The notes beneath the pieces are model-generated. The model searched no databases. It was not told where the DNA came from and worked only from the letters and a program-made list of their open reading frames with translations. A DNA stretch of 64,000 bases from a virus: positions 97,099 to 161,098 of IMG/VR virus record IMGVR_UViG_3300008954_000002. One strand, written 5' to 3'. This document shows positions 17,235 through 38,806 of the stretch, in pieces. The translations under genes and the position numbers were made by a program. How positions within the stretch are numbered: the first letter of the stretch is position 1; each line of letters starts with the position of its first letter.

Positions 17235-20200
17235 TTACTCTGGTATTCCCGTCATTCGATTGGCTCTTAGTCCAGTCCAAGGCGTCCGCCATATTGCATC
17301 TTTCCAAGCGGTCCATTCTCTTGTCACGTCATCGATACCCCACATAGTATCATCTATTATATTGGTTACATCTCCAAAGATATTGCGCCAAATAGCCATT
17401 GGGTCACCTTGTTGTAGGCCAGACACAATTGGTCTACCACCCTTTGTCAAAGGAACAACAGCTACTGTCTCTTCTTGAAGACACTTAGCGAAAAGAATAG
17501 GACCTGCAACAAGCCAGCTAGCGCCTAGGTTATTAAAGACATTATCCAGCTTGTTCCATGCCCAAGTGCCTCCCTTTGCAGTTCCCCCAATCCCTATTGC
17601 TTTAGCAATGCGTGAGCTCCAGATACCGTTAGCAGCTGAGATACCTACCTTTCCAAGCGCTGCACTTGCAAGCCCTCTAGTCCCAAAAGCTAAACCCGTA
17701 GTTACTCCACCGACAAGCAATGCTGCTGTAAGACTTGCCATGTTGTGGCCTGGCAGTCTACCTTCTGTAAAACCACCTGTTATATCTGGATCGTCTGGAA
17801 GCATTTCGCTCATAAACTCTTCGAAATCAAATCCCTCTTGAAAGATGCCTCCATACTTCTTAGCTAAGCGCGCCTTGTAGTCGGGATCGGTAACTGCCGA
17901 CTCCCACCAGTGACTACTCCCACCCCCATCTCTAGGAATACCATCAGGGCCTACAGTGCCTGTGCCTTGCTCTTTGTCTCTAACGGCCATACAGTATAGC
18001 TTTAGTCCTTCTAGAACAGGCCAAGTAGAAATTTCATTAGCAAAGACTACTGCGTTAGGCTTTATCTCAGTTAAGAAACCTGTTTCATATGAAAACATAT
18101 GTACTACTTGCTCTACCTCAATAGGGCCAAACATATCATTATAGTCATCTAGTAGATAGCAGATATCCCAAGGCTTGATCCTAGGGTTGCCTAGCACTAG
18201 CAACTCACCACGGTACATCTTTTTAAGACCATACATGAGCGAGCTCATACCATATCGCATTGCGGCTTTCTTCCCAATGACATTCGAGAAAGATACTGGC
18301 AGTACGTTTAGGTCTGGCTCTTTAATAAAAGAGCTTGCCTTCATAGGAAGTGTTTTGCTAACTAACCGATCTCTATCATGATACAAAACAGAGACTGCGT
18401 TAACAACATTGTGCTCTGAACCCATGATGTTGTTGGATACAATATCTGTTTCAGATCTAAGCATATGGTAACGCCTAAAGGGTACAAATCTATTTTCAAG
18501 ACCTTTAAGATACTCTTCCATTACCTCATTAGTAAAGCGTAAGTTTAGATGGTCAAGAGAAGCACTTGCAGCGTATGACTCTGGCTTCTTTACATAAGAT
18601 TGGAAATTCCCATCTACATCTGATATATCTTCAATATTATTAGGGTTGAAAGGATTAAAAGATTCGCCTAACTCGACATAAGATTCTGGCAAACTGCTAC
18701 TAGAATCAATTCTTTCTTTAATCTCAAAGGAAAAAGCATCTTCTATTTTCTTCAAAGCAACTGCACCATAAAGCTTTTCGTAGATATCTCTATTAATGTT
18801 GCCATCTTCTAAATGCTCTCTAAGAGTGTTCATCCTATCTACAAAGTTATTAGTTGCGGGCTTAGACCAATACCTTTGACCTGGAACACCAAAGAACATT
18901 GTATACCTAAGAGATGTACCATAAGGTCTTGGTCCATATATCCAGCCAGGATGCCTTAGAGACATCTCATGGAATAAATCCCATATAGTAGAGTTCTGTA
19001 CTTGGTAAAGGCATTCACTTGGCAGCAATTGTTTGTTAGTTTGCCATTTGTCAGGTTGAGTCCATGCATCGTACCATTCACCTACCTTATCGGCTGTACC
19101 TGGGACACCCATAAGAGCTCCTGCAAAGCCTCCAGCGACCACAGCACCAAGGCGTTTTATAGTACTCCACTCCCAAAACTCAAACTCTAGGGTCATGTAA
19201 TCCTTAGGATTGGGAGGGTAAAGGTTATCGTCTTGAGGGCTTAAGAAGAGCGATGCTTTCTTTCTAGTGTAATTGCGTTTGACTTCGCCAATCGTAATAT
19301 CATAACCCCAACCTAGTACATCAGCTGCAGCCTGCAACCCAATACTTGCTGCAGTCGCAGCTAGAAAAGCTCGACTATTAATAGCAAGTACTCTTCCAAA
19401 GATATTAAAGCCACTGCCAGCGATCTGCTGTGCCCCTTGGAAAAAGGTAAGCCCACCAAGATTTGCACCTGAATATCCGAGCACTAGACCTCTGACTCGT
19501 GATGTCTCACTTTTGGCAAGGGTAGTAAATGCTGTTTCTATTTCTGCAAACACTGCTGTCTTTTCAGCCTTCGTGGTAGTTCCAGCAAGTTTTGTAAGCA
19601 ATGGTCTCAGCCCTGCCTTCCTAATGCTCTCAGAAGAAACACCCCCACTATGGAGAAACTTATTCACTACGCTGCCCCTGCTACCGCCCTTGGCCATGCC
19701 TATAGCCGCACCTATTCTTTGGTTGATACCTTTAGCTGTGACAGCTAGATTCTTGCCAGCAAATCCTCCCCATGTTGAGCCTCCTCCTATCTTTGCAGCT
19801 GCTCCACCCATTAGTCTGCTTACTATCCCTTTAGATGCGCCTGCAGCCGCGCCTGCTCTGCCCATAGGAGTTATAGAAAGCGCTGCAATACCAATTGCTA
19901 TGCCTGTAGATATAACTGGATGAGTCTTCATAAACTTCATCATTTTTCCTGTGAAGCTAAACCAACCCCAGAAATCTTTTTCTGAATAGTCTACAAAATC
20001 CAGCCTAGCGTCTTTAGACTCTCCGTACTGAAAGAGTTGTCCTATTTTCCATCTACCAAAATGAAGGACTTCTGGCTGCAACATCATAGAGCTTAAAAGC
20101 TTATGAGTGGTTTCGAATACTAGTGCTTCATCATTCTCGCCATAGCGACCATCATTTCTGCCTTTGATATCAGCTGTTAGCTCGACTCCAAAAGATTGTA

Positions 20201-23200
20201 CAGTCAGCTCGCATAGATCACCCTGACTGTTCCACATGACATCCACTACTCTGCCAGAGATAAGCACTTCTAACATATTAGGATCATTAGAATATCCAGC
20301 CCTAAGTTGAATATTCATTCCAGGGCGCATTACTACGGCAGAGAATGGTTGGTGTCTACCGTCCTCTACCTCGGGAACATTGTTATGCGCTTGAGTGCTG
20401 TCGTTTAACTCCTTTATCTTTGCAGCTCTTTCTCTATCAAAGTAATCTAAATCGACAACGGCTTCTCTTTTAGTGCCGTCTAGAGAGCCAGATACATTTT
20501 GCAAAACAATAGTTGCTGTATCAGCTGCACTTTCTCTACTCTGAACAACAGTAAATTCTTTTACTCCATTATAAGTATAGAAATCATCAAAATTAAGAAG
20601 CCTGCTATTGAGCTCATCTTCCTCAATAAGCATTAATTTAAAGGTTGGGTATGCACGCCTTAGGGTAAGCTTCTCAGAGATGATGTCATGAGCAGAATCA
20701 TTAGTAAGGTTTTTGAGCGATTCAGGATCAAAGGCATGTGTATACGTATCCATCGCGGCAAGTCTAGTATCTTCAACAGAGTCTACTGTATTAGTAGCTG
20801 TCTCATCAGTGAGATACTCTCCTAAGTAACCAGCTTTAGAGCCAAACATCGCCTCACTTTTAGCAACTTTCTGAACAAGATCCCGATATACATTTGCATC
20901 TACTCTCGCTTGATCACTGCCAAGGATTCCATCTGTAAGCGAAAGGTAGGGAATAAGTGGCTTAAGTCCGCCCTCAGTCGATATTGTCTTAAGCCTTGCC
21001 AGAACTGTCTTTGCATTATCTCTTGCCTTCTCCTGCTCTTTGGTACCTCTAGGCATATTCTTAATTTGCTCTGATAGCTTTTTGATCTGTTTCTCTACAT
21101 TGGCAGATCGCTGTACGAAGCTGTCTGGATCCCAAAAAGCAACCTCCATAGGGTTGAGCTCTGCCTCTTTCAGGTAATCCCACCTGCCCCCTATCTTGGT
21201 AAGAGAATCTACATCATCAGTTCCGGTTGGATGATGAACTAGTGCAGACATAATAGGCGATTGAGCAGTAGCTCCCGTAGTGAGCCCCTTGTCATCTTTG
21301 CTGCGTATGCCTGAACCCTGCATCTTCTTGAGATGGTCATAAGAGCCGTTTATCTGTGCAGCTAAATTGTCTTGTAAGTCTTCTACAATTGCTGCGCTTA
21401 CTGCACCTGGAGCATCTTCGTAAATGCTCCACATATAAAAGTCTGGATTAGTAGCATGTAGACGATCTGGATAGTAAGGGTGAGCAGGCAAATCCATATC
21501 TGGGTAACATTGAATACCAGACCAATTTGCAACGCCACCACTAAGATCAGTTGTAGCCAACTCTTCTAGCCCAAACAGTGATAGCAAAGGCATGTTGCTT
21601 AGCAATCTATCTGCTAGATCAACCAATCCAGAGCGTATCTTTTTAATCTTGTTTTCTTCATACTGGATTGAGGTCTTTATAGGGGGCAATGTAGTCCGCT
21701 GATAAGTATAGTTGCCTTGCTCAACGCTACCTTCAGATTGTAGATAACGTGGCGGTAACGACCACCATGCAAGGGCTGCTAAGTGCCCTTTAAAGCCTAA
21801 AAAGCTAGTATCTTCAACACTCTCTATGAACTTTTTAAAGGGAGCCAGTATAGTATCTGAAGCACTCATTAGAATCTGATCATGCAGCGGCATGATGTCA
21901 TTAATATATAGTTGGACTACAGTCTCAACATCAGCCTCTGCTTCCTTTCTATTGTTATCTATTGTGGTTGTTCCTTCTCCTGCCCAAAAGGGAACATCAG
22001 TGCTACCGTCACTGTCTATAGAGCCAATAAAATGGTCAAACATAGTGGGCTTATCATTTCTTCTCAAGATCTGCTGCCACTGGCTGCCGTCTCCTCTTCT
22101 GCTCTCCATAGGCGTAAGGAAGTTGACTGCACTATCTACAGCCAATGCTGTGTTATCGATAGCGCCAAAAGCTATGCGTTTGATACCCCTCCATGGGCCA
22201 CTCATTACAACAGAAGTGGTGTGTTTAATGCCTACATATCCAAACCCAAGGCCATCATCAAGTCGTGCCTTGAACTCTGCCTGTGTGCTCCACGGGTTGA
22301 CTCCTAAAGATTTTATCTCAGCAGGAGCATAAGCGCCAAGGTTCTTGCTTAGCCAAGCGCCAACACTGTCAGCTTTTAACCAATCGCCATATCTCCACTT
22401 AACATAAGCATACATCCAGTAGCCAAAACGCTGCCACATCTCTTGCTCTAGATTAGGAAGATTGTATAGCTGTTCTTTAAAGTGTTCTTCAGTAACTGCT
22501 CCTGGAACATTAGGTTCTGATACAAGACAGTTAGCTTCCTGAATAAGTCCAAGTAAGAAAGCGTGGTAGTGTCTGACAATTTCTATATCTACATCTTGTA
22601 GTCTTGGGTTTGCATAATGAAATTGAGTTACATCTACAAAGGAGGCGTCAACAAGAGTCGCTTTAATAGCTCTACTCTCAATATCTTTAATAATTCGTGC
22701 AGATTCTGCCATGCTGTGCGCTTGATCTATGCCTCCAAGTGAAAGAGCAGCTCTAGGAGTCCCAAGCGGATCAACAGGATCAATATAGCCTGCAGCTTCT
22801 AGCTGAGCAGTAGTCAACTCAATATCACTAGTTAAGTCACCCCCTGTCCTATCCAAGTAGTCTGCCATAATGCTTTTGTTAATTACATACGCATCTTGTT
22901 CCGTATCCTGAATTAACTCTCGTATCCCAGCATCAGAATTCCCAACATCATATAGATCGGCACCCCTACCTGGCACTTGGTACTGCTTAGCTCTTTCAAA
23001 AGCCTCATCACCGAAACTAGTTCTTATTTCTTTCTCTGTCATCATGAAGCTATCGCTACCATCTGCTCTTATAAATGGAGCAGCACCTACAGCTTCAAAC
23101 ATGTTGACTTGTTTTAAAGCAGTCTCACCAAAGAGCTGAGAGTAGAACTTGTCTTGACCAGTTACAGATATGTCTTGGTCAAAGACAGCCACTCTTGACG

Positions 23201-26123
23201 CATACCTCTCGGATATGCCAGCATCCATACGACCTCTCATTAGTTGTTCTGGCATGTTCTCCGAGTCAAACTCAAACTGTACCTCGTTTGCATTTTGCAA
23301 GAGTAATGCTGCAATACCTTCTTCTGTAAGCTCTAGGTTGGCTAATGCGTGCAGTACTTTCTTGCGTCGATCATCGATATCAGGCGAAGCGGTCGGTACA
23401 GCAATGATCTCTTCTTGTACATAAGGATTAGTTTCACTTACTTCAAAAACCATTGAGGATAGGCCAGGATTCCCTTCCTTTGTTTCGCAAGTAGCCCGAG
23501 TGATACACGAACGCTTACGTAGTGCTGATTGATTACTTTCATTAATCTTGTAATCGGAGTCACTATATGTGCCGAACAATCTAGTAATAAAGTTGTCTGT
23601 ACACAATGCATGCCCATCAAGTACGGGTCTAAATGCACGAGCATTATGCTGTAGCTTCTGACGCATTTCCTCCATAGATCTGCCGGGCAAAGGTATGCCT
23701 GTTAGCTTGTCATCTATTAAGGCAAACTCCATCATGTAGGATGGCTCAGTTGAGCCAAGATGCTGATGCGTAGGAAACTCAGAACCTAGAATTGGAATGC
23801 TGGCAATGTTGTGCCGCATACCGCCTGCAACGCCAATGAGTACAGCACCATCTCTAAGCAGAATCTTTTTAGTATTGAGAGCGCCATACTCTTCAGTGCC
23901 ACTTACATCGGACCAGTCAAGGTCATCATTGCCTGTGAGTATCGACAAGGTAATAGTACGACGCCAAACATTTACTACATCGCTGCGAGCGTCATAGTAC
24001 ATGAAGCCAAGATTTGCTAAGTCTTTGTAATCGTTAAGTATCCCTTCTGCTTCTTCTTGAGTTAACCCTATGCTATCAAGCTGATCCTCGGTTAGCAGAG
24101 TCTCCTCTTGTCCATCTGGCTCTACTACTGTAATAGCTGCTGCTTCTCCAAGCTCTGGATCTGCGGTTGTCGGAGTACTGGTAGTGCTTGAGCTGGGATA
24201 TGGGGCATTCTTCTTGGCAAGCTTTTGATCTTCAGAAGTCATGCCCTGGATTACATCCTGCATATATTGCGTATTAGGAGTTTGCCCATCGCGGGCATTT
24301 AGCCACGGAACAGGATTGAAAGGCATCTCCGACGTATTCTCTTGTAACTCAAAATGTAGGTGAGCCCCGGTTCCATAGGTTCCAGACAAGCCTATGGGTT
24401 GTCCTCTCGTTACTACAGCTCCCTTGTTAACATCCGTCTTAGATAGGTGTCTATACACACTTGTCATATTGAGATCAGAGTGGAGTATATACAAGACGCT
24501 ACCCGTAGCAGAGACTACTGTTCCATCCTCAACTGCATATATAGGTGTTCCCTCTGGGATAGGGATGTCGATCCCTTCGTGAGGTCTTTGCACATGCGCA
24601 GCGGGGTGATCCCAACGCCAAGAGAAATGATCAGATAGTCTAAAAGCATTTGGATCATCGTCAACTAGGCAAGGCCTATGCAGTATTAACTTGTGCATGT
24701 CCTTGCGCCGCCACTGGCTTAGCCGAGTGTGACGACCTTCTCCAGGAGCATAGGTTCTACGTTTATGTTGTCCGCGTATCTCTATAGCAGGCAGAGATGA
24801 GGTAGCGCCAGTTCTTTCTTTGCTTTGAGTTTCAACTGCTGCCTCTTGTAACTTCTTCTGCGCATCGCTGAGCTTGGCAATAATATCTGGGGTAAGGTTG
24901 AGAGTTCTATAATCTTCGTAATGAAAGATAGTTCTCTTCATTGTTGAGAGGAATGTCGACACCCATCGTTGCCTAAGTACTGGAGGTACTCCTCCAGTGT
25001 GAAGTCCAGTCACATATCCGGTAGCCTCGTCCATGGAGGTAAAGGAGGCAACGCTTTTATATAGAAGACCTGCACCTGTAGTAGAGCCACCCGGAAATTC
25101 AAAAATGTCTTGGTAGACATCAATCCCAAAGTTATCATATAAGGACTTTGCCTGTAGCGAGTTAATAAATCTTACATAGATGTTGGATAGGGCGGGCGTC
25201 ACTACCCATGCACTAGCTTGCATCCTGCTTGGGAGTGGTAGCAGATCAAAGACGCGACCAGCATGAGTTCTCTCCATGTCGTGTAGGGTCATAGTCTTTG
25301 AAGAGCTTCGTTCAATAGCTTCAAGAACAACGCTAAATGTTTCACGGGCTGGGTCTTCTTGGCGAGGACCCTCTTCCCCTGCCCTGTATTGGCTTTGGTT
25401 AAAGTTAGAGAAACCCTCTACACCTCTAATGATTGTTGGTAGCCATCCCTTCTCTCTCCCTTCGTCTTCGCTCTTCTCTGTGTACCATGAGTTAGCTTCC
25501 TTTTCATGCCCAACCATACTCTCTATGAAAGGGCCAATCCAAACAGGGATACTATATCTAACTGTATCTGTCACCGCAGACGAAGAGGACCCCTTAGATC
25601 CTGCACTAGGCACTTTTATGCTTTCTGTTGCCCACTCTCTTCTAAAAAGGAAGTTGACAGCATAGGGAGCATAATTAAACCAGCGCAGATCTATCTCGCA
25701 TGCAAAAGTGCCTGGCGTTCCCTTCATAGGAGAGACATTGATAGAAGACATTGTAAAGGCCATTTGCTGCCAGACTTCCCAGCGTGGGACAATAGTCTCA
25801 CGTAGATAGTCGTTCTCAATCCAACAGAAGGGAGAGTGCTTGAACTGGACTATCAGCCTGTGCAGAGACAATAGCATGTCTGGTGTAAAGATAATATTAA
25901 GGCTTACCTGTACAAGCCCATGCCCGCTAGGAACTTTAGTAGAGACTCTTGAGCGTAGGGTGTTCCATTGCCAATACATATCCTCCTTACGAACAGAGAT
26001 CTGAGTAGGCGGAATTACTAGCTCTATGTCGTTGATGGTAAATACAGCATTAGGATCCGATGCGTCTTTACCATCCCGATATTCCCAGCTGCGGTCGGCT
26101 GCGCCTCTAATAATACCTGCCAT
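17235..26123 (-). CDS. Giant baseplate hub protein with M23 peptidase domain (2962 aa)
   Basis: Starts at ATG 26123, sharing TAATG with the upstream stop. Residues about 500-610 form an M23 (LytM-type) zinc endopeptidase: H515 and D519 (PHEGIDIP), then H588 and H590 (AHLHFEL), the standard metal and catalytic set for cleaving peptidoglycan cross-links. Around 1935-1985 a stretch (GYSNDPNMLEVLISG, then FGVELTADIKG) resembles gp27/late-control-D hub domains. Near 2390 and 2640 HPGWIYGPRPYG and NPRIKPWDICYLLDD match the C-terminal hub pattern of large phages. Hydrophobic clusters lie near 2066, 2324 and 2793. T4 keeps hub and lysin in separate proteins; here they are one chain. It probably forms the hub and locally digests the wall during injection. 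Confidence 0.85.
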   Translation of the reverse strand: MAGIIRGAADRSWEYRDGKDASDPNAVFTINDIELVIPPTQISVRKEDMYWQWNTLRSRVSTKVPSGHGLVQVSLNIIFTPDMLLSLHRLIVQFKHSPFCWIENDYLRETIVPRWEVWQQMAFTMSSINVSPMKGTPGTFACEIDLRWFNYAPYAVNFLFRREWATESIKVPSAGSKGSSSSAVTDTVRYSIPVWIGPFIESMVGHEKEANSWYTEKSEDEGREKGWLPTIIRGVEGFSNFNQSQYRAGEEGPRQEDPARETFSVVLEAIERSSSKTMTLHDMERTHAGRVFDLLPLPSRMQASAWVVTPALSNIYVRFINSLQAKSLYDNFGIDVYQDIFEFPGGSTTGAGLLYKSVASFTSMDEATGYVTGLHTGGVPPVLRQRWVSTFLSTMKRTIFHYEDYRTLNLTPDIIAKLSDAQKKLQEAAVETQSKERTGATSSLPAIEIRGQHKRRTYAPGEGRHTRLSQWRRKDMHKLILHRPCLVDDDPNAFRLSDHFSWRWDHPAAHVQRPHEGIDIPIPEGTPIYAVEDGTVVSATGSVLYILHSDLNMTSVYRHLSKTDVNKGAVVTRGQPIGLSGTYGTGAHLHFELQENTSEMPFNPVPWLNARDGQTPNTQYMQDVIQGMTSEDQKLAKKNAPYPSSSTTSTPTTADPELGEAAAITVVEPDGQEETLLTEDQLDSIGLTQEEAEGILNDYKDLANLGFMYYDARSDVVNVWRRTITLSILTGNDDLDWSDVSGTEEYGALNTKKILLRDGAVLIGVAGGMRHNIASIPILGSEFPTHQHLGSTEPSYMMEFALIDDKLTGIPLPGRSMEEMRQKLQHNARAFRPVLDGHALCTDNFITRLFGTYSDSDYKINESNQSALRKRSCITRATCETKEGNPGLSSMVFEVSETNPYVQEEIIAVPTASPDIDDRRKKVLHALANLELTEEGIAALLLQNANEVQFEFDSENMPEQLMRGRMDAGISERYASRVAVFDQDISVTGQDKFYSQLFGETALKQVNMFEAVGAAPFIRADGSDSFMMTEKEIRTSFGDEAFERAKQYQVPGRGADLYDVGNSDAGIRELIQDTEQDAYVINKSIMADYLDRTGGDLTSDIELTTAQLEAAGYIDPVDPLGTPRAALSLGGIDQAHSMAESARIIKDIESRAIKATLVDASFVDVTQFHYANPRLQDVDIEIVRHYHAFLLGLIQEANCLVSEPNVPGAVTEEHFKEQLYNLPNLEQEMWQRFGYWMYAYVKWRYGDWLKADSVGAWLSKNLGAYAPAEIKSLGVNPWSTQAEFKARLDDGLGFGYVGIKHTTSVVMSGPWRGIKRIAFGAIDNTALAVDSAVNFLTPMESRRGDGSQWQQILRRNDKPTMFDHFIGSIDSDGSTDVPFWAGEGTTTIDNNRKEAEADVETVVQLYINDIMPLHDQILMSASDTILAPFKKFIESVEDTSFLGFKGHLAALAWWSLPPRYLQSEGSVEQGNYTYQRTTLPPIKTSIQYEENKIKKIRSGLVDLADRLLSNMPLLSLFGLEELATTDLSGGVANWSGIQCYPDMDLPAHPYYPDRLHATNPDFYMWSIYEDAPGAVSAAIVEDLQDNLAAQINGSYDHLKKMQGSGIRSKDDKGLTTGATAQSPIMSALVHHPTGTDDVDSLTKIGGRWDYLKEAELNPMEVAFWDPDSFVQRSANVEKQIKKLSEQIKNMPRGTKEQEKARDNAKTVLARLKTISTEGGLKPLIPYLSLTDGILGSDQARVDANVYRDLVQKVAKSEAMFGSKAGYLGEYLTDETATNTVDSVEDTRLAAMDTYTHAFDPESLKNLTNDSAHDIISEKLTLRRAYPTFKLMLIEEDELNSRLLNFDDFYTYNGVKEFTVVQSRESAADTATIVLQNVSGSLDGTKREAVVDLDYFDRERAAKIKELNDSTQAHNNVPEVEDGRHQPFSAVVMRPGMNIQLRAGYSNDPNMLEVLISGRVVDVMWNSQGDLCELTVQSFGVELTADIKGRNDGRYGENDEALVFETTHKLLSSMMLQPEVLHFGRWKIGQLFQYGESKDARLDFVDYSEKDFWGWFSFTGKMMKFMKTHPVISTGIAIGIAALSITPMGRAGAAAGASKGIVSRLMGGAAAKIGGGSTWGGFAGKNLAVTAKGINQRIGAAIGMAKGGSRGSVVNKFLHSGGVSSESIRKAGLRPLLTKLAGTTTKAEKTAVFAEIETAFTTLAKSETSRVRGLVLGYSGANLGGLTFFQGAQQIAGSGFNIFGRVLAINSRAFLAATAASIGLQAAADVLGWGYDITIGEVKRNYTRKKASLFLSPQDDNLYPPNPKDYMTLEFEFWEWSTIKRLGAVVAGGFAGALMGVPGTADKVGEWYDAWTQPDKWQTNKQLLPSECLYQVQNSTIWDLFHEMSLRHPGWIYGPRPYGTSLRYTMFFGVPGQRYWSKPATNNFVDRMNTLREHLEDGNINRDIYEKLYGAVALKKIEDAFSFEIKERIDSSSSLPESYVELGESFNPFNPNNIEDISDVDGNFQSYVKKPESYAASASLDHLNLRFTNEVMEEYLKGLENRFVPFRRYHMLRSETDIVSNNIMGSEHNVVNAVSVLYHDRDRLVSKTLPMKASSFIKEPDLNVLPVSFSNVIGKKAAMRYGMSSLMYGLKKMYRGELLVLGNPRIKPWDICYLLDDYNDMFGPIEVEQVVHMFSYETGFLTEIKPNAVVFANEISTWPVLEGLKLYCMAVRDKEQGTGTVGPDGIPRDGGGSSHWWESAVTDPDYKARLAKKYGGIFQEGFDFEEFMSEMLPDDPDITGGFTEGRLPGHNMASLTAALLVGGVTTGLAFGTRGLASAALGKVGISAANGIWSSRIAKAIGIGGTAKGGTWAWNKLDNVFNNLGASWLVAGPILFAKCLQEETVAVVPLTKGGRPIVSGLQQGDPMAIWRNIFGDVTNIIDDTMWGIDDVTREWTAWKDAIWRTPWTGLRANRMTGIPE

Positions 26124-29100
26124 TAGTCACCCATCAGTCTGTCAATATAGTTAGGAGTCAGTGGTCTCCTAGTGTCATTAATTCGTATTGAGCCAGAACC
26201 TCTAATGCCTGCAAGAAAATCCATAGAAGCTCTTACTCCACTAGTAGAGGGTACCTCACCTCTAATTTGATAAGCGTTTTGTCTTGAGAAATAAGTTTCT
26301 CCAGTGTTTACAGGCCTATGCATCATATCATTGTGTGGTCCCCCACCCAAGCTTTCTGGGGTGGGCATGTTGTCTTCTCTTGGTGCAAACAGCTCTCCTC
26401 TTCGTATAGCTGTTGCTACTCCAGAGTCCATTACTTCACCAGCAGACAACATTGGAGTAGGTGAATATCCTTCACTTCCCATAACTCCTTTAAGTGCTAA
26501 AGTAATACCTACACCTGCAGCTACGGGACCAAGGAATCGTTTGTCTAGCTTCTGTGTAGCGCTTGTAATGCGATTAGTGGTTGCAGCTATCTCATCCATG
26601 GTGCCTGCAAGACCAGTAGTAGTCTCAAGGGCAAGTCCTGCTTCCATAGCATGTCTTTGTTCGACCTGAAGAGCAAAGGCTCTCCGTGTTGCAGCTTTCT
26701 CACCTTTGAACATTTGGGCATTCTGATAGGCAGTCCCACTAAATTCTGCACCTGTCTCGTGTACATAGCGCGCAGCCATACGGCCAGACTCAACTAAGGA
26801 GCCAACACTAACCGCTCTGCCTTCTTGCAGCAGTGACTTGTTGAGCTGCTGCATTATTTTGGCTTCTTCTCCGGTACCGCCCAGCCCCCCCAGTTGCTGG
26901 GCTAGCATATCTTTATTGAAGCCAGTAATTCTAAGACCTTCCTTCGTATTTATGGCTGAGCCTTCAAAGATGTCTTCTAGAACTTTCTGGTACTTAAGTG
27001 AGCCTGCTTCAGATCCACCAGTTCGGATCATCTCATTAGTAGCTTCAATAAGATCTCCTGCCATATTTTTATAATGTGCATGGTGTTTGGCTTTGATTGC
27101 TACAATCTCTTCTATAGCAGTAAGACCAGCTAGCCCCTGCTGGGCAGCACTATATCCCATCTCTGCAGAAGTTTGTACTGTCCCCAACCTAAGCTTGTTA
27201 AGCGCCACATCAATTCTGCCAATGTCTTTAGCAGTAGCTTCTTTCATAACCTCATGATAGCGAGCTTCTTGAGGTGAGAGCTCACCTAATGCGCTTACTT
27301 CCATTTGAGCAGTCTTCTTGATAACTTCTGAAGCCTCCTCCATGATAGCGCCTACTTCAGCCCTATACCTAAGGGCTTCATTTGAAAACATCTCTTTTGC
27401 TGCAGAGGATTTCTGGAAGTAACCACTAGTGCCTTTCTTTGCAGAGGGAAAGAACAGCTGATAGTTATCGCCATCAAAGTCACCAATCATTCCAGCAGCA
27501 AAACTAAGGTTTAGCTTTATGCCCTTCTTCCTGTTGTTGTAGTGGACATCTACTTCAAAGTTGGGAATATAAACCTTGCCTCCGCCCTCTGTCGGTGCCA
27601 AAGCACTTATGTTTCTAGCCATGCTCTGGAAGAAGTCACCCATTGCTCCCCCTGCCTTCCGTCTAAGCCCTTTCTCTGTGCCAGGAAGCGCCATCCGTCT
27701 CATCTCTTGGAAGCTAGATGGCCTCCTACCTGTAGCAGCCTCAAACCTAGCAAGAGCAGCTTTACCTTCTGGAGTGCCTCTAGTGAACTTGCCAAACATT
27801 ACATCCGCCCGACCTGTTTCAGGTGCATATCTGAATGTCTGGGCAGGGGCTACATGCCCTGGGCCAAGCACTGGATCTCGACCTAGGATAGTTTCAGTTC
27901 CCTCTGTAAGTCTCGCTTCCATTCCAAGGAAGTAAGACTGGAATCGAGATCCCATTTCTTCCATGGCAGCACCCTTAGCTTTCCCACCTGTCATACCTAC
28001 CGCCTCATAAGAAGCAGTAGCTCCACCCATGTATCCACGCATTGAATCTAGAAAGCGTTGTGTATCGGCAAAAACCGCACTGCCACTAGAGCGCTTAAAA
28101 GCAAGCTGGGTCCGTGACAACTGTGCCTTGGTAAGCTCAGTGGTTGGAAATTCACCTGCTATCTGAAGACTAGCACCCAACCCATAGGAAGAGCCTCTAA
28201 GCTTTCCTCTTAGGACACTATTGTAAGTATTCCCAAATAGCTCACTAATGCCTGCCTTCCATTCGCGCAGTAAGTCGGCGTTTGCACCCGCGTCCACAGA
28301 CTGCCTAATGGTATTCAAGTTGTCGGATAGAAGATGTATCTTTCGTGTGTACTCCCCATGTATTGGCTTTGGTCCCTCAGCAGTTTTAATTTCAACACCC
28401 CTCATAAGTGCCATAGTGTTACCGCCAGCAATTCTAATTTGTCGAGTTCCAAGTGCAGCTTCTGCAGCTCTTCCTGTCTTATCTCTTACTCCACCAAGGT
28501 CAAGTATAAAGCCTTCCTTATGCTGTGCAAGCAATTCGGTCATGGCTCGTGTATCACGCGATCCTTCGAGAAAGGCGTCTACGCCTATAGTAGTAAGCTT
28601 TTGGGATGCTTTATATCCAGCAACTACTCCCTCTCGTCCACTAAGCGTGAGCTGCATCTTGGAAAGATCCTGAACAATCTTCAAGTGTTCAGCTGCTCCT
28701 CTTTTACGAGCAAGAACCATAGCCATAAAGTCGTTGGCCTCATTAGCGGGCATTCCGAGATTAGCTACTTGATGCTGAAGGAACTGGTAATAGCGCGGCT
28801 CTATAGAAGACTCTGCTGATCGAAGTATCTGAGAAAGTGGACCTGGAGTAATAGTATCAGCACCAAGAGCTGTTCCTCTCTTAGCTGATGCGATAATTTT
28901 CCCAGCAAGAGGCCCTGCTTCTCCTTTGATAAGGTTAGCCACTGCTGTCTGTGCTTCACCCTTTGCACCAAACCCATATAAGTCTGCGTGCTTGTAAAGC
29001 CCAGCCATAACCATGCCCATCTGCCCGGTTCTTGCTTCTGCATTAGGCAGTGCAAGCATTTTCTTCAAGGTAAGGCTTGCCATGTTCTCAAGATAAGCCC

Positions 29101-31390
29101 GGTCTCTAGCTACCTTTGACATGCCCTTATAGGCTGCGTCAGGGAGAGCGTCCTTATCCTTATTAATGGTGTTGAATAAACTATTCCAAGTTTTGTCTTT
29201 TGTTCCATAGCCCGCCATGAGACCCATACCGGTAACCATCTGTCTAGCTACTGCTCCTGAACCCTTCTTGAGCATGCCTCCACCAGAGAGCATTGTCTGT
29301 TCTGCTCCAAGCCCCAGCGCTTGGACCTCGCTAAGAACCCCGGCTCTACCCAGCATCTCGCGTTGCATTTCCGGTGTCATTCCCTTAGTAAAAGATTTTG
29401 TAAGTGTCGAGAAGGCTTTGGCAGAACTCGTATCTATAACTACGCTGCCACCAAAATGAATCCTAGGTGTACCCATAACATTAGAGGCACTCTCAAATGC
29501 AAGATTAAGCTCTTGCATGCCTGTGTAATGTGCAAGCTCTGCTCCTTGCCCTATCTGAGAAAGAGTATTGCCGTACTTGCCAAAGAACTTAGCTATCTCT
29601 TTCTCACCACTCACACTAATCTTACCTGCTCCAGAAGACCAAGCAGTCTGTCCTTCAAGAAGCTCATTGAGCAGCTGGGTAGATGGAAGATCCAATGCCG
29701 CAACGTCCAGTACAGACTTCTGTATTGCTTGCCTAACTCTTGCCTTGCCTCCAAGCCAAGCTTCACCTGGCCCAAGAGAAAAGACATTCTTACCACTAAG
29801 ATCCATGACGATAGCTTTATTCATACCACCTGTTAGACCATTAGACCACCCTACGTTTTGGCCAAACTGCTGAAAGGTTCTTGATGAGCCGAGTGTACTT
29901 TCTACTGGATTTGCAGGCTGGACAAACATGCCTTCCCTACCAGTAACCTGCCTAATACGCATTGTTGCTGGTAGTGTACCTCGATCTGTTAATCCAAGTG
30001 GTGTAATTTGGCTTAGAGGACTGTTGGCACCTAGTCCAATTCGCGTCCAAGAGCCTCCGCCGGGAAGCCGCTTTACTTCATGGCTGCCACCAATATCAAA
30101 AAGACCTCCCTCTGCATACGCAAAATACTTTCTAAGCTCAGTCTGTGCCTTTAGATCAAGAGCGTCCCACCCAGCGATAGTCATGCTTGAATGACTAATA
30201 GCTTGTTGTGCTAACAGGTGCCCCCTCATAGGAGAAGAACCCGGTATTGATACAGCCCTGCTTTGCGATGTGCCAAAGCTCCGTTGGAATTTGCCAACAG
30301 TATCTGCATTAATCTTGCTTGCATTGCCGCCAACAGCTTTCAGTCTATTGAGAAAGTCATTGGCAAAGAAATCAGTTACACTCCCGATGGCACCTGCCTT
30401 CTTAAGGCGACCGATACTATTTTGATCCCAGACTGCTGCACCAGGAGCACCCGTCTTTCTAAATTCGTTTAACAGCTTTGTTGCATCTGCAAATAAAATA
30501 TCAGCACTATACTGTGCAGTACTTTGAGCACCTACTCTAAAAACAGGAACGCCACTTGGGCTGTTCAGGCTTAGAGGTATGCTTGCTCTGAAGGTACTAC
30601 GGTTGCGCCCCTTGTTATATATGTGGGCATAAAGATCATCTCCTTGCCCCTGCATAATCCTGACCTCGCCAGTGCCCCTCATTGCTTTCTCAAATTGCCC
30701 CTTCCATGCTGCTATCTTGGGAGATAGTTCTCCTGAGAACTCAGTGAAATTAGGGTTGAGTCCTCTTAGATTATACGTAGGAGCCTGTAGCTGCTCTCGC
30801 ATTCCTTGGTTTCTACCCAGCAAACGATGGAATGTAGCTTGGGCTTCTGGAGTGCCACTCTCTAAAACCGTATTCACAGTACTCTGTACTATTTTGGCTG
30901 CATCCTCAGTAAGCTGAGCCTCTCCATTTCGCATAAGCTCTATCAATTTGCTTTTAATATCTTGAGCTTTTGCTGTAGAAATACCTGAAGTAGCATCATC
31001 AACAGCTTCAACAATTGTACTCAGAATTGCATTGCGAGATTCAACGCCTTCACCAAGCATTCTTGTAATGCTATCCTTGGAGGGGTTAATTAAATCTTCA
31101 GCAAACTTCTGAAACTTTACTTGGTTAATCTCCTCTCTAGCTGCACGCGCTCTTTTTAGGGAATTCCCGATACTGGCATTAGAGTCTCTAAACCCATGTG
31201 TCTTAAGCCCCAACAGAGAGCCAGGCGTATTACTCTTGAGCGCAGCAACCCCTACACCAACACCTACTGCTATAGGTGCTACACCAACAACTTGCTCAAT
31301 AAAATTGCGACTAGTATCGCCAACCTCCTGAGTGCTGAAATCTGTTCTTTGGGATTTGCCAAACAATCTAAGAAGAGGGTCAATTGCCAC
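26123..31390 (-). CDS. Candidate virion RNA polymerase in the tape-measure cluster (1755 aa)
   Basis: Starts with GTG at 31390 behind a GGAG site. Three short motifs resemble the two-barrel single-chain RNA polymerases (QDE-1, plant RDRs, YonO, crAss-like phage polymerase). RDPVLGPG at 1171-1178 corresponds to the conserved NPCLHPG-type loop. GDFDGDNYQLFFP has DFDGD at 1304-1308, where three Asp would bind catalytic Mg. DIGRIDVALNKLRLG (Gly near 1391) may be the bridge-helix region. The spacing between the first two motifs (about 130 residues) is longer than usual, implying an insertion. Hydrophobic segments lie at 34-51 and about 1618-1637. Position suggests it is packed in the tail or head and ejected. 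The alternative is a tape measure with a chance DxDxD loop; it lacks a full EF-hand pattern. Confidence 0.6.
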   Translation of the reverse strand: MAIDPLLRLFGKSQRTDFSTQEVGDTSRNFIEQVVGVAPIAVGVGVGVAALKSNTPGSLLGLKTHGFRDSNASIGNSLKRARAAREEINQVKFQKFAEDLINPSKDSITRMLGEGVESRNAILSTIVEAVDDATSGISTAKAQDIKSKLIELMRNGEAQLTEDAAKIVQSTVNTVLESGTPEAQATFHRLLGRNQGMREQLQAPTYNLRGLNPNFTEFSGELSPKIAAWKGQFEKAMRGTGEVRIMQGQGDDLYAHIYNKGRNRSTFRASIPLSLNSPSGVPVFRVGAQSTAQYSADILFADATKLLNEFRKTGAPGAAVWDQNSIGRLKKAGAIGSVTDFFANDFLNRLKAVGGNASKINADTVGKFQRSFGTSQSRAVSIPGSSPMRGHLLAQQAISHSSMTIAGWDALDLKAQTELRKYFAYAEGGLFDIGGSHEVKRLPGGGSWTRIGLGANSPLSQITPLGLTDRGTLPATMRIRQVTGREGMFVQPANPVESTLGSSRTFQQFGQNVGWSNGLTGGMNKAIVMDLSGKNVFSLGPGEAWLGGKARVRQAIQKSVLDVAALDLPSTQLLNELLEGQTAWSSGAGKISVSGEKEIAKFFGKYGNTLSQIGQGAELAHYTGMQELNLAFESASNVMGTPRIHFGGSVVIDTSSAKAFSTLTKSFTKGMTPEMQREMLGRAGVLSEVQALGLGAEQTMLSGGGMLKKGSGAVARQMVTGMGLMAGYGTKDKTWNSLFNTINKDKDALPDAAYKGMSKVARDRAYLENMASLTLKKMLALPNAEARTGQMGMVMAGLYKHADLYGFGAKGEAQTAVANLIKGEAGPLAGKIIASAKRGTALGADTITPGPLSQILRSAESSIEPRYYQFLQHQVANLGMPANEANDFMAMVLARKRGAAEHLKIVQDLSKMQLTLSGREGVVAGYKASQKLTTIGVDAFLEGSRDTRAMTELLAQHKEGFILDLGGVRDKTGRAAEAALGTRQIRIAGGNTMALMRGVEIKTAEGPKPIHGEYTRKIHLLSDNLNTIRQSVDAGANADLLREWKAGISELFGNTYNSVLRGKLRGSSYGLGASLQIAGEFPTTELTKAQLSRTQLAFKRSSGSAVFADTQRFLDSMRGYMGGATASYEAVGMTGGKAKGAAMEEMGSRFQSYFLGMEARLTEGTETILGRDPVLGPGHVAPAQTFRYAPETGRADVMFGKFTRGTPEGKAALARFEAATGRRPSSFQEMRRMALPGTEKGLRRKAGGAMGDFFQSMARNISALAPTEGGGKVYIPNFEVDVHYNNRKKGIKLNLSFAAGMIGDFDGDNYQLFFPSAKKGTSGYFQKSSAAKEMFSNEALRYRAEVGAIMEEASEVIKKTAQMEVSALGELSPQEARYHEVMKEATAKDIGRIDVALNKLRLGTVQTSAEMGYSAAQQGLAGLTAIEEIVAIKAKHHAHYKNMAGDLIEATNEMIRTGGSEAGSLKYQKVLEDIFEGSAINTKEGLRITGFNKDMLAQQLGGLGGTGEEAKIMQQLNKSLLQEGRAVSVGSLVESGRMAARYVHETGAEFSGTAYQNAQMFKGEKAATRRAFALQVEQRHAMEAGLALETTTGLAGTMDEIAATTNRITSATQKLDKRFLGPVAAGVGITLALKGVMGSEGYSPTPMLSAGEVMDSGVATAIRRGELFAPREDNMPTPESLGGGPHNDMMHRPVNTGETYFSRQNAYQIRGEVPSTSGVRASMDFLAGIRGSGSIRINDTRRPLTPNYIDRLMGD

Positions 31391-31405: not shown

Positions 31406-34400
31406 TTACATAGCTCTAGCGAGTAAACTTAGTATATCTGATTCTCTTGAATCATTATAGTGCAGTTGGGCTTGAGTCTGCCCACCCCAATAGCCATGCA
31501 CACTCATATCTCTAGAGCCTCGCTGGTGCTCAGACCTAGGCAAGTTATACATAAGCTCTCCTATGGAGTCTCTATGAAGGGGATGATCTTGGTAGAGGAA
31601 ATCAGTTGAGCCTTCTAGGTAGGGCTTGCGAGCGAGCATTCTCACATCCCTTTGCCAGCCACCATACTCATGAACATCTCTACCAAGATCATCCGTATAT
31701 TTGATCTTGATATCTCTTAAATCTACATCTGCATTATGCCCTATCCAGTCTTCGGAAGGCAAAGGCTTATCATAGAAATATCCTTGCAGCTCATTAAAAC
31801 GACTCGCTAAGTAAGCTTCATTAACCTGTGTTGCAGAGCCTGCATGCAACCCAGGATCGCCCCTATCCATTCTTTCCCATACTGTCTGATAGAGGTGGGC
31901 CTGATCCGTAGGAACCATTTCAAGGATTCTTTGCCTATCTTCTCCCTGTGCAAAAGTGAATGCATCATAAAACTTCTTTTCTCCCTCTGGCATTGCTGCA
32001 TAGATGCCAAGCGGATTACCTTGAGGGTTGACACCAAAGCGAGTTTGCTGAGCCCTATAAAGGGCCTGACGCTTCTCATTGCCCTGAGACTTTTGAGCAA
32101 TTGTCATCCACTTCATAAACTCTAGCTTGTCAAAATACTCATCGGTCTGACGCGTCTCTTCTACATGACCGGGGATTCCCCTATAGCCCATAAGATTAGC
32201 AGCCTGATAAGCAGCTGGCCTAAACCAGTCACGTACTGGCTTGTCCCAAAACGCCATATTCGTGCCGTACAAATTTGTCCTTTCATATTCCTCTATAGCG
32301 TCTCTATTCCCCATCAGCTTAGACATAGGTCTAAAGCCGAAAGGCATCATATACTCAGCGGGTTCAACAATAGCTCTAAGCGATCTTTGTCCAACATGCC
32401 AAGCAGCTTGTGTAGCTTCAGAAAGCAGTGGAACTTCAATTGCGTTATCATGAGTTGGTAAGAAACCGTCACCGATTAGCTTCTTATTAAGTCTTGTATC
32501 AATAAGATCAATGAAGTCGTTTGTATTCCTGCCTGTCAATCCAGCGGCACGAGCTTTATATATCTGAGCTCTTGTGGTTCTAAACTCAGGTGACCAATCT
32601 GCCACATCAGCTAGGATGGCATATCGATAAGCTATTGGATACTTTTCAGGATCAACTCCACGCAGCTCTGGATGTATAGCTTGGTACCCAGCCCCAGGCA
32701 ATCTTACATCAGCATCAGGAATAGTTCTGTACGGATCACCCATCTTGTACCTTTGGGGCAACCATGAAGGCATGGTATTTAAGATAGGATTATATTCGTC
32801 AACCTCTGGTCTTATTCTAGGCAGAAAGCGCCTTGCAAGCTCTGAGGTAAAGAAGGCACCCCCCAAGTCCATACCCCAGAAGGCCTCTCTAAGATCGGTA
32901 ATGGAACTTGCACTAGACAATACAGAGCGCTGACTGAAGAATGTCTCTGAGCCAGTCAGCTTCTTTGTTATCACATTGGAAAGAAATCCTGTTAATCCTT
33001 CCATCTCTCTAAAGCGATAACTTGATGCACCTGCTACAAAGCCAGGCGTATATGGGGACATTGGCTTGCCTGGCGTTAGCCCGCCAAGCTCATAGTTAGG
33101 ACCCTTATACTCAGGGGCATGAGCGAACTCTAACTGGTCTCCTTGGCCTGTACGAACCCAGTCTGGGACATGCATGAGTTTGGGCGGCTTAATAACTCGT
33201 CCAATAGTTGCCGCTAGAGCAGGCCCAATCATTGGGACGTCTTCAAATGCACTACCCGTAATTGTATGGGGCCTATTCCAATAGTTTCTTCTCTCAAGCT
33301 CATAAGTAAAGTTCTTTCGTAAGAACTTCCCAAGAGGACTAATGCTGTCTTCATCCTCTCCCCAGCGTGCTCTCTCTGAAGCCCTGCTTCTCCAAAGAGC
33401 AAACCGGTGAGGTCTCATATACTTTGTTTCACCTCCCTCAATATCTCCACCACCACCTTCCCAGAACCGACTTGCTCTTACTTCAATCTGTTGCTTCCCA
33501 GAGTATATGTCCATGAGATCGCTGGGGTTCTCTAGGCTGCCAATACCACCAGTAGTAAGCAATCTGTGAGCTGCTGCGCCGGCGGCAAACAATACTCCTA
33601 AGCGACCGATACGAGGCTTAAATCCAGTCTCCTCAAAAAGTCTTGTAAGATACTCTTGACCTACAAGCTCCTTGCTTAAATTTGCTCCAAAGAACCCGTG
33701 CATGGCACGGCTGCTAAATGATTCTGCGACTCTCGCTGCTCTAGCTACAAAACCTGTCCTTCCAGAATAGTGTTTGTCTATCCGTTTTAACGATTGCTGT
33801 AGGGAAGCATTGAGTGGGTTATTTTCAAGAAAGGCTTTATCTTGTGCAGTAGCTCCACTTCGTTCAAGCTGGAGCCTATCCATAAGAGCACCCCATCGCC
33901 CTTGTTCTTTGGCAGACTTCTGCATAGCAAAGAACAGCCGATTTCTTCTAACTGTTTTGGGTAGCTTGCCCTCCATGATTTGATTAGCTTTTTCTGCAGA
34001 GACATAGCCTTCATTAATTGCTACATTATGGACACTGCTCCAATACCTATCTCTAGCAGAGAGGCCAACAATTCCAGCACCCTTGACACTGCTTGCTTCT
34101 AGTGCAGCCTTTTGGAAACCAATCCTGCCATCAAGAATTCCACTTAGTCGGAAGGGTTCCTGTCCATACCTTTCAACAAGATGTGCAGGCAAACCTAAAT
34201 ACCCAGCAGCAGCCAATGATAAGCCGGCAAAGGCACTAGTCTTCCAATCGGTTATCCCTGGGGCAAAACCCTCCAGTGTCCTTCGGTATATATTAAGCCC
34301 AGTAAATTTCCCAACGGCAGCTAGACCTACTTGGCCAGTTGCCCAAGTATCAGCAATACCTTGTCCAGTACCCTTGTCAAAACCAGGCAATAGCATTTGC

Positions 34401-35569
34401 CCAAAGAAAGCACCTACGCCTACCATCATGGAGGCGCGCTGACTTCCTCCAAACTTCTTAGTAAGTGCAGCGGCACCTGCTGCCATTCCTCCTGACACAA
34501 GTGCATGCCCAGGAAGTCCACCCTGCCTTCTTATCCAGTCTAGCTGCTTAACAGCCAGAATAGCACCACCAACCTGTGCCCCCTTAATGCCAAACCGTGT
34601 AAACATCTCCATGCCTGTTCCAGGACGAACAGCAAGTGACATTCCAAGATGCTTTTCAAACGATTGTGCTACACCACCTAAGAGTGGCAGCTGATCCATC
34701 GTTGTTCCAATAAGCCTATTAAGTCTTTGAGCTCCAAAAGCATAGAGCGATCTGAAATAAGTACTTCTATTAGATAGATCAGAAAGGTTTCGTAGCGGAC
34801 CTCCAACTGAAGGCATTGGCATGAAGCGAGAAATCTCTCCAGATACCGAGTCAGAGAATACTCTTCTAAATTGGTTAGGAGACCACTCTTTAAAAAACCC
34901 GCCAGCCTGCAGAACCGATTGGTAAGCAGGAGTCATCTTGGGTTGCTTGAGGCCTACTTGTGCAGCTTGGGCAACGTCTTTAGCTGATACTGGAGTAGTC
35001 TCAAATAAAGAAGCAGCGCTGGATACTAGTTCCCAAAGGCCTTTAGTTCCTTTGCGTGCAAAAAGACTACCTCTAGCGGCTGAGCGGGCATCTCTCTCAA
35101 AGAGGAGCTCGAACCCTTCGTCGCCAAACCCTCTGTTGATGCCTAACTTGTCAAAAGTCTCCCCACCAAAGAACTTCCTAACAACTTGCTCTGTCTCACC
35201 AGCGCCAAGAACATCTTTGCCCCAGTGCACTCCAACTACATCTCTAGTTAAGAGCTTACCTCCTGGCCCCATAAACTGTTGAGCAGCATACTTCTTAGCT
35301 CCCTGCATCCCCGAAGATACAAAGGGCGACATCCATTCGGCAGCACCAAAGGTATTGCCAAAACTCCATGGGGTGCTAGACGCAGCATGTCTTACTATTC
35401 TTTGAAGATCATCAATAACTCGACCGCCACTAGTAAGCGGACGTGTAGTTGCATAAAGCCCAGCTCCACCTAAGGCAGCGGTGATAGCAAGATTGAAAGC
35501 TCTCCCTGAGGGGGGATTCCACGGAGTGGCTTCCTCAGAAGTCCACCTATGCCCAGGGTGATAAGCCAC
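31406..35569 (-). CDS. Probable tape measure or tail-lumen protein (1387 aa)
   Basis: Begins with GTG at 35569, just after the stop of the second chaperone; GAGGG lies upstream. It is the first long gene after the tail chaperones, the canonical tape-measure place. Several hydrophobic, Gly/Ala-rich segments (about 27-48, 363-397, 451-470, 660-677) fit membrane insertion on ejection. The C-terminal 500 residues are different: Pro, Tyr and Trp rich, with MPSWLPQRYKMGDPYRTIP, and rather globular, which is unusual for a simple ruler. At about 1.5 Angstrom per residue it would set a tail near 200 nm, but with two more giant proteins beside it the ruler could be shared. No catalytic motif seen. Confidence 0.6.
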   Translation of the reverse strand: MAYHPGHRWTSEEATPWNPPSGRAFNLAITAALGGAGLYATTRPLTSGGRVIDDLQRIVRHAASSTPWSFGNTFGAAEWMSPFVSSGMQGAKKYAAQQFMGPGGKLLTRDVVGVHWGKDVLGAGETEQVVRKFFGGETFDKLGINRGFGDEGFELLFERDARSAARGSLFARKGTKGLWELVSSAASLFETTPVSAKDVAQAAQVGLKQPKMTPAYQSVLQAGGFFKEWSPNQFRRVFSDSVSGEISRFMPMPSVGGPLRNLSDLSNRSTYFRSLYAFGAQRLNRLIGTTMDQLPLLGGVAQSFEKHLGMSLAVRPGTGMEMFTRFGIKGAQVGGAILAVKQLDWIRRQGGLPGHALVSGGMAAGAAALTKKFGGSQRASMMVGVGAFFGQMLLPGFDKGTGQGIADTWATGQVGLAAVGKFTGLNIYRRTLEGFAPGITDWKTSAFAGLSLAAAGYLGLPAHLVERYGQEPFRLSGILDGRIGFQKAALEASSVKGAGIVGLSARDRYWSSVHNVAINEGYVSAEKANQIMEGKLPKTVRRNRLFFAMQKSAKEQGRWGALMDRLQLERSGATAQDKAFLENNPLNASLQQSLKRIDKHYSGRTGFVARAARVAESFSSRAMHGFFGANLSKELVGQEYLTRLFEETGFKPRIGRLGVLFAAGAAAHRLLTTGGIGSLENPSDLMDIYSGKQQIEVRASRFWEGGGGDIEGGETKYMRPHRFALWRSRASERARWGEDEDSISPLGKFLRKNFTYELERRNYWNRPHTITGSAFEDVPMIGPALAATIGRVIKPPKLMHVPDWVRTGQGDQLEFAHAPEYKGPNYELGGLTPGKPMSPYTPGFVAGASSYRFREMEGLTGFLSNVITKKLTGSETFFSQRSVLSSASSITDLREAFWGMDLGGAFFTSELARRFLPRIRPEVDEYNPILNTMPSWLPQRYKMGDPYRTIPDADVRLPGAGYQAIHPELRGVDPEKYPIAYRYAILADVADWSPEFRTTRAQIYKARAAGLTGRNTNDFIDLIDTRLNKKLIGDGFLPTHDNAIEVPLLSEATQAAWHVGQRSLRAIVEPAEYMMPFGFRPMSKLMGNRDAIEEYERTNLYGTNMAFWDKPVRDWFRPAAYQAANLMGYRGIPGHVEETRQTDEYFDKLEFMKWMTIAQKSQGNEKRQALYRAQQTRFGVNPQGNPLGIYAAMPEGEKKFYDAFTFAQGEDRQRILEMVPTDQAHLYQTVWERMDRGDPGLHAGSATQVNEAYLASRFNELQGYFYDKPLPSEDWIGHNADVDLRDIKIKYTDDLGRDVHEYGGWQRDVRMLARKPYLEGSTDFLYQDHPLHRDSIGELMYNLPRSEHQRGSRDMSVHGYWGGQTQAQLHYNDSRESDILSLLARAM

Positions 35570-38734: not shown

Positions 38735-38745
38735 AAAGAGACTCC

Positions 38746-38789
38746 AAAAAGGAAAGGTGGAGGGCGACTAGGAGCCGCCACTCACACCT
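38746..38789 (-). terminator. Bulged hairpin after the tube gene, likely attenuator
   Basis: Reading on the minus strand: AGGTG-t-GAG-t-GGCG, loop of 9, CGCC-CTC-CACCT. This gives 12 paired bases with two single-base bulges, followed by TTCCTTTTT. It sits in the 72-bp gap below the 213-aa tube gene and above the 324-aa gene. It would let most transcripts end after the most abundant tail protein while allowing some readthrough. The structure is visible in the sequence; the degree of termination is inference. Confidence 0.5.
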
Positions 38790-38806
38790 GTTTGTTTGCT
38801 TAGGTA

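Follow-up and report, generated by a model that had tools for sequence, protein, structure and literature searches.

A probable two-barrel RNA polymerase encoded at the tape-measure position in a lineage of contractile-tailed phages

Virion polymerases linked to the tape measure have been demonstrated in one group of siphoviruses of Thermus (PMC10770324). A proven example of a tape-measure virion RNA polymerase (vRNAP) is gp96 of phage P23-45, which carries the motif series FRNPVMGHGG...VDFDGD, while gp66 of the crAss-like phage phi14:2 is a virion RNA polymerase with both barrels on a single chain (PMC10770324). In Bacillus phage 0305phi8-36, orf145, orf146 and orf147 follow one another, and the role of tape measure has been assigned to orf146 (PMC2147016). 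This gene sits among the structure genes of a phage in which mass spectrometry identified 55 virion proteins, and only the last 60 residues of its product can be aligned with its counterpart (PMC2147016). The polymerase described for 0305phi8-36 is orf99, a relative of the RDR enzymes encoded outside the structural module (PMC2147016), and in the literature searched the proteins of the tape-measure slot in this lineage have not been described as polymerases.

The sequence analyzed here is a 64,000-nt window (positions 97,099-161,098) of IMG/VR record IMGVR_UViG_3300008954_000002, a genome of 161 kb from an uncultured virus with a terminal repeat of 119 bp; all coordinates refer to the window, and the features given with coordinates lie on the minus strand. 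The gene order runs from the sheath of a contractile tail (39467-41551; phrog_16991, E 3e-43), continues through two tube-like proteins and chaperone-sized genes to an orf145-like structural protein, P0002 (31406-35569, 1387 aa), and its downstream partner P0001 (26123-31390, GTG start, 1755 aa), and then reaches a giant orf147-like baseplate hub with an M23 peptidase (17235-26123, 2962 aa). Flanked by the orf145-like gene and the hub, P0001 is the positional homologue of orf146 and takes the place of the tape measure in a myovirus of the 0305phi8-36 type; the annotation of Acinetobacter phage ME3 served as a further reference for this order. Relatives of P0001 were gathered through the sheath and hub proteins, a single-protein scan of viral contigs having been unsuccessful. 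The homologues in related contigs share 19-31% identity, precede the hub wherever their position is visible, and hold the tape-measure position in a fixed gene order in every relative examined. The initial annotation had described a giant gene standing on its own where a myovirus has its tape measure, and this held, applying to the whole lineage and not to a single phage. In Moorella phage MTATph1 no DxDxD was found in this slot, which contains a transposase. Separately, the gene preceding the slot in MTATph1 encodes a DnaQ-like exonuclease domain.

The suggestion of a possible two-barrel RNA polymerase had been made from sequence alone on the strength of three ordered motifs, all of which are present: RDPVLGPG at residues 1171-1178, GDFDGD at 1303-1308 followed by NYQLFFP, and DIGRIDVALNKLRLG at about residue 1389, where the segment from D1389 reads D-I-G-R-I-D-V-A-L-N-K-L-R-L-G. 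The metal-binding triad D1304/D1306/D1308 (27467-27481) is invariant in all 18 sequences covering the aligned site, satisfying the check set beforehand that homologues keep the three Asp. Within this motif F stands at residue 2 in only 8 of 18 sequences and G at residue 4 in 15 of them, the three Asp never vary, and D.D.D occurs only once in the 1755 aa. Shuffling of the invariant columns gave P = 0.005 for an invariant triple at x, x+2 and x+4, before requiring that all three be Asp; conservation of DxDxD exceeds chance. Ahead of the triad lie the strands of an R-x-P motif (residues 1165-1187, RDPVLGPGHVAPAQTFR; 27830-27898), comparable to the gp96 motif and to NRAPTLHRLG of beta', with R1171 present in 16/16 sequences and the Pro in 15/16. 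Further upstream, residues 1061-1079 (28154-28210) contain the catalytic barrel's first strand and an RGKLRGS motif that resembles LLGKRVDYSGRSVI of E. coli beta'. The initial annotation's caveat that the first two motifs are unusually far apart (about 130 residues) also held, as R1171 and D1304 are separated by 133 residues; this wide spacing is explained by a helical insert within the catalytic barrel (about residues 1190-1265; 27596-27823), delimited from the alignment and an AlphaFold2 model. Downstream, a bridge-helix-like segment (residues 1383-1401; 27188-27244) rests on its conservation and on model helices at 1373-1387 and 1390-1406, and includes a KE-G-D helix in which E1384 and G1391 are kept in 19/19 sequences and D1394 in 17/19. 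Lysines of what the initial annotation counted as the first barrel had remained unplaced; K658, K665 and K709, which do not vary in any of the 12 sequences extending to this part of the protein, are now candidates. They fall in the presumed DPBB-B (double-psi beta-barrel) region (residues 625-715; 29246-29518), where strands are predicted with low confidence, and residues ~600-715 are likely to represent the second barrel, although its fold is unresolved.

The active-site signature is thus shown to be conserved among homologues, and this conservation bears on the possibility that P0001 is a former polymerase domain that now serves as a catalysis-free scaffold, or tape measure, in the tail lumen. 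Such a reading is consistent with the structural nature of the slot and with loss of the triad glycine in ME3 (DHDQD) and in other homologues (DHDAD or DFDSD). However, the three Asp, the R-x-P Arg and the three Lys are invariant despite high divergence, as selection on catalysis predicts, and the glycine at position 4 lies outside the DxDxD signature (PMC10770324, PMC7824862). We consider a dead scaffold unlikely.

Profile searches offered limited support for a polymerase. Scanned against the entire 161-kb genome, RNA_pol_Rpb1_2 (PF00623) had a single match, at the DFDGD site of P0001 (E 0.0037; 27434-27529), and in Bacillus phage KLEB27-3 its only match was the syntenic gp034, annotated as a 'structural protein' (E 7e-5, spanning RYPTINQ...ADYDGD); both scores fall under the curated cut-off. 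With HMMER, whole P0001 retrieved nothing useful from Pfam, PHROGs, NCBIfam or PDB by phmmer or profile, and a family profile of P0001 found no PDB relative. The RDR/YonO profile PF05183 did not match P0001, tblastn against 50,697 phage records returned no match, and no relatives were found in 84,980 species genomes. Alignment of the family profile with single known RNA polymerases by hhalign was not significant, phi14:2 gp66 included; the alignment to P23-45 gp96 (E 0.57) lay off the motif, with no detectable similarity beyond the motifs. The profile's best local match, also not significant, was to the R-x-P motif in KLEB27-3 gp034 and to the DDDGD region in P0011, a gene at the left genome end. 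Since PF00623 and PF05183 both miss the known P23-45 polymerases, absence of a Pfam match is not evidence against an RNA polymerase.

AlphaFold2 modeled residues 1050-1465, the region around the triad, confidently (pLDDT 83.9, pTM 0.80), and 40 of the 50 best Foldseek matches to this model in the PDB were DPBB RNA polymerases, mainly beta' chains and QDE-1, with the nearest solved folds to the DFDGD region being mostly catalytic subunits (PhiKZ, AR9, plastid, bacterial beta' and QDE-1). No individual E-value was below 0.8 in the PDB or 0.016 among viral structures. Matches in BFVD (prob 0.87-0.94) include a phage protein annotated as DNA-directed RNA polymerase; the top query TM there (0.32) belonged to an 802-aa ME3 protein, uncharacterised and likely half of the syntenic gp036. 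An RNAP-like fold of the catalytic barrel is a prediction of the model in which no single match is significant, and archaeal PolD, which shares two barrels, is not excluded. A larger model of residues 400-1595 was poor (pTM 0.55) and its Foldseek matches were only noise, so that the second barrel is not confirmed as a fold.

These data weigh against accidental resemblance, in which DFDGD would be a calcium or other metal loop of an unrelated tail protein. Calcium-binding proteins often contain DxDGD loops, and searches with single sequences and profiles gave no significant match to known RNA polymerases. Against this, the fold neighbours are mostly RNA polymerases, GK..GS and R-x-P precede the triad in beta' order, and PF00623 independently matches syntenic genes of two phages, so that this explanation is very unlikely and largely refuted. 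Calcium-loop and exonuclease readings of P0001 were both set aside on fold and motif evidence. We conclude that P0001 is very likely a two-barrel RNA polymerase, in which residues ~1060-1320 would form the catalytic barrel (GK..GS, R-x-P and DFDGD), broken by the helical insert, and ~1370-1435 the bridge-helix zone, its helix geometry being inferred. The initial proposal is thereby supported, while the fold of the lysine-bearing barrel, catalysis and presence in the virion are not shown.

Whether P0001 travels in the particle is inferred from its setting. Its C-terminal region (residues 1600-1755; 26126-26593) is the best-conserved part of the protein and, by this conservation and the parallel with orf146, a likely virion anchor. 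The genome also encodes a second polymerase-like gene, the RDR/YonO-like P0011, which is the only PF05183 match in the genome (E 0.0013-0.0024, under the cut-off) and contains GDDDGDMVIV; a clear PF05183 match (E 2.9e-14) is present in the relative G010. Alternatively, P0001 could be a two-barrel polymerase that is not packaged, a late product of the structural operon used for late transcription, with its position incidental. No proteomics exist for this virus, and two-barrel polymerases that are not part of the virion are found in many phages (PMC10770324, PMC5467207). However, the tape-measure position and fixed order in every relative examined, the strong conservation of the C-terminal region, as in orf146-type structural proteins, and the presence of P0011 as a separate early-type polymerase gene make this unlikely.

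We therefore favor a virion-carried P0001 as the likely reading: a single-chain two-barrel DNA-dependent RNA polymerase built into the tail that enters the cell with the DNA, its DNA-templated activity, packaging and target genes all being inferred. Its first ~400 and last ~150 residues would probably attach it to the virion, where it would be assembled with the tape-measure complex and later injected. Once inside, it may transcribe the first-entering terminal genes, including P0011 at the left end, whose product would then transcribe later genes. Copies of one hairpin-flanked element (TTTTATTTYAATGG) cluster at the genome ends. A bolder reading, for which we see as much reason to doubt as to believe, is that the whole 0305phi8-36-like lineage, ME3 and KLEB27-3 included, employs an RNA polymerase as its tape-measure machinery or as part of it, injected through the tail tube and starting at a small set of hairpin-flanked genome-end elements (TTTTATTTYAATGG here), with first targets that include the second, RDR/YonO-like gene.

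It is likely, with activity and packaging inferred, that the particles of these phages contain a phage-encoded transcription enzyme, which is injected and turns on the first phage genes. If so, tail-borne two-barrel polymerases would be a general strategy, extending to a deep contractile-tailed lineage with a different layout and no detectable similarity; the 'tape measure' orf146 of 0305phi8-36 would gain a function, and the start of transcription in such phages would be explained. As ME3 and KLEB27-3 are cultivated, they allow direct tests of rifampicin resistance, of polymerase activity and of what the virions contain.

Set against known systems, P0001 finds its nearest kin by gene order in the 0305phi8-36 lineage, where orf146, ME3 gp036 and KLEB27-3 gp034 share the arrangement and the ME3 and KLEB27-3 proteins contain R-x-P and DxDxD (REP...DHDQD in gp036). 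The multisubunit polymerases of PhiKZ and AR9, myoviruses with a virion polymerase, are among the closest Foldseek folds (8que, 7ogp, 7s00), but they are built from several subunits, with a distinct set for the virion, whereas P0001 is one chain encoded by a tail gene. QDE-1, RDR and YonO have the single-chain two-barrel plan proposed here, and QDE-1 is among the fold matches, yet PF05183 matches P0011 and not P0001. The plan is also that of phi14:2 gp66; phi14:2 has a podovirus-type tail, unlike this virus. P23-45 gp96 shares with P0001 the tape-measure slot, the R-N/D-P-V-M/L-G...DFDGD series and, close to the left end, a gene for another polymerase. However, gp96 is a siphovirus protein of 5002 aa whose polymerase is the N-terminal fifth, a layout that P0001 does not share. 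With its contractile tail, 1755 aa, triad near residue 1304 (~450 residues before the end) and large insert in the catalytic barrel, P0001 is in our reading a variant of the P23-45 tape-measure vRNAP arrangement with a different layout.

The initial annotation had placed an ORF at 26123-31390 of the window with three polymerase motifs at particular residues, and both claims held: P0001, a putative two-barrel RNA polymerase of 1755 amino acids, is encoded on the minus strand from a GTG start, with all three motifs in place. In related contigs, obtained by scans guided by the sheath and hub proteins, the gene before the hub is homologous to P0001 at 19-31% identity. The three Asp of its DFDGD triad (D1304, D1306 and D1308) are unchanged in all 18 sequences spanning the site, which reads DFDGD, DADGD, DMDGD, DWDGD, DNDGD, DFDAD, DFDSD or DHDAD. 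The sequence signature shown here includes R1171 (kept in 16/16 family sequences), K658, K665 and K709 (12/12), and E1384 and G1391 (19/19). Syntenic proteins of two cultivated phages carry R-x-P with DYDGD (RYPTINQ...ADYDGD; KLEB27-3 gp034, L013:20004-27308) or with DHDQD (REP...GGDHDQD; Acinetobacter phage ME3 gp036, L012:23173-27984). Both lie in the tape-measure slot and lack a polymerase annotation despite these motifs.

Profile searches point to the same region. The sole PF00623 (beta' domain 2) site in the whole genome is P0001 residues 1288-1319, matched at E 0.0037 and 14.3 bits, under the curated cut-off, and the sole site across 16 related or control records is the syntenic KLEB27-3 gp034 (E 7e-5 in that search; 0.015 in a Pfam scan). 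The proven polymerases of Thermus siphovirus P23-45 were detected by neither PF00623 nor PF05183 (RDR/YonO). A model of P0001 residues 400-1595 was weak (pLDDT 66.6, pTM 0.55) and returned no match in a structure search. Residues 1050-1465, modelled from 19 sequences (pLDDT 83.9, pTM 0.80), form strands at 1069-1076, 1165-1172, 1180-1187, 1272-1282, 1291-1294 and 1309-1313; a helical insert occupies ~1197-1264. Taken singly, no PDB match to this model is significant (best E 0.84), yet two-barrel RNA polymerases account for 40 of the top 50; among them are the PhiKZ and AR9 non-virion enzymes, plastid and bacterial beta', Pol I and QDE-1. In BFVD, an annotated phage DNA-directed RNA polymerase is among three matches with probability 0.87-0.94, and the highest query TM-score (0.32) belongs to an 802-aa ME3 protein, probably half of gp036 judging by length. 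Among viral proteins, the catalytic part finds its two best fold matches in the large unnamed A0A7R7G2L5_2 and A0A386KLD2_1 (Microbacterium phage Burro); both superpose poorly (E 0.016 and 0.049) and could be further virion polymerases or noise. The predicted catalytic-part fold is shown, the second barrel of P0001 is inferred, and the evidence for likely membership in the two-barrel superfamily is good, if not complete.

The window covers the rightmost 64 kb of an IMG/VR record of 161,098 bases, which is probably a complete genome because its ends share a 119-bp direct repeat. The genome also encodes a ribonucleotide reductase carrying intein and LAGLIDADG domains (G000:C1:55151-59332); its gene for DNA polymerase III alpha is divided between two ORFs and shows a partial match to an intein (G000:C1:64491-68162). 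Genes around P0001 encode a terminase, portal, capsid and tail sheath, a pair of tube-like proteins, the orf145-like P0002 (1387 aa; 31406-35569, minus strand) and a hub of 2962 aa carrying an M23 peptidase (17235-26123, minus strand). The two tandem proteins after the sheath (37760-39448) both match PHROG 9206, named major head protein; by position, paralogous tail-tube proteins are more likely. Synteny is shown: ME3 gene order matches this locus, and its annotations name 0305phi8-36 proteins YP_001429630 to -638. In 0305phi8-36, orf146 holds the P0001 position, its tape measure assignment resting on tail length, and orfs 143 and 144 are the sole non-structure genes in its vicinity (PMC2147016). 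We therefore infer a tape measure or tail-lumen protein slot; which of the two, P0001 or P0002, governs tail length is undecided. In the tape-measure region of Moorella phage MTATph1, CDS0027 (L011:15513-19442) has a DnaQ-like exonuclease domain and is followed by a transposase, then the hub.

A second polymerase-like gene is shown outside the window near the left genome end. The 952-aa P0011 (genome 1849-4707, plus strand; L044:1849-4707) has a sub-threshold PF05183 match and carries ITRYPLV...MGDDDGDMVIV, from which we infer a putative RDR/YonO-like RNA polymerase. Because of these features and a clear PF05183 protein in the relative G010 (E 2.9e-14), the source genome probably encodes two two-barrel polymerases. 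The element TTTTATTTYAATGG occurs as six exact and two approximate copies, with no exact copies expected by chance, at G000:C1 1, 1221, 1458, 1805, 4758, 160308, 160780 and 160980 (window 63210, 63682 and 63882 for the last three). All are on the plus strand and fall between ~0.8 kb upstream and ~4.8 kb downstream of the contig junction; copies 1 and 160980 are one site at the two ends of the 119-bp repeat, and an extra two-mismatch match at 136637 is at chance level. A stable terminator-like hairpin, weak at 160308, precedes most copies, and a short hairpin starting at GG follows most; copy 1805 lies directly before P0011. The elements may be terminators, promoters (candidate pre-early) or both, and their connection to the polymerase is inferred.

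We propose that P0001 would be a tail-borne single-chain polymerase that enters the cell with the injected DNA and would transcribe terminal genes, P0011 included; packaging, activity and target genes are all inferred. The literature searched, the PMC10770324 supplementary survey excepted, reports no polymerase at the tape-measure position in the 0305phi8-36 lineage. By analogy, P0001 may work like P23-45 gp96, a tape-measure-fused virion RNA polymerase (PMC10770324), although sequence does not demonstrate membership in that type and both protein layout and tail type differ. P23-45 also has two two-barrel polymerases, like the probable pair of the source genome.
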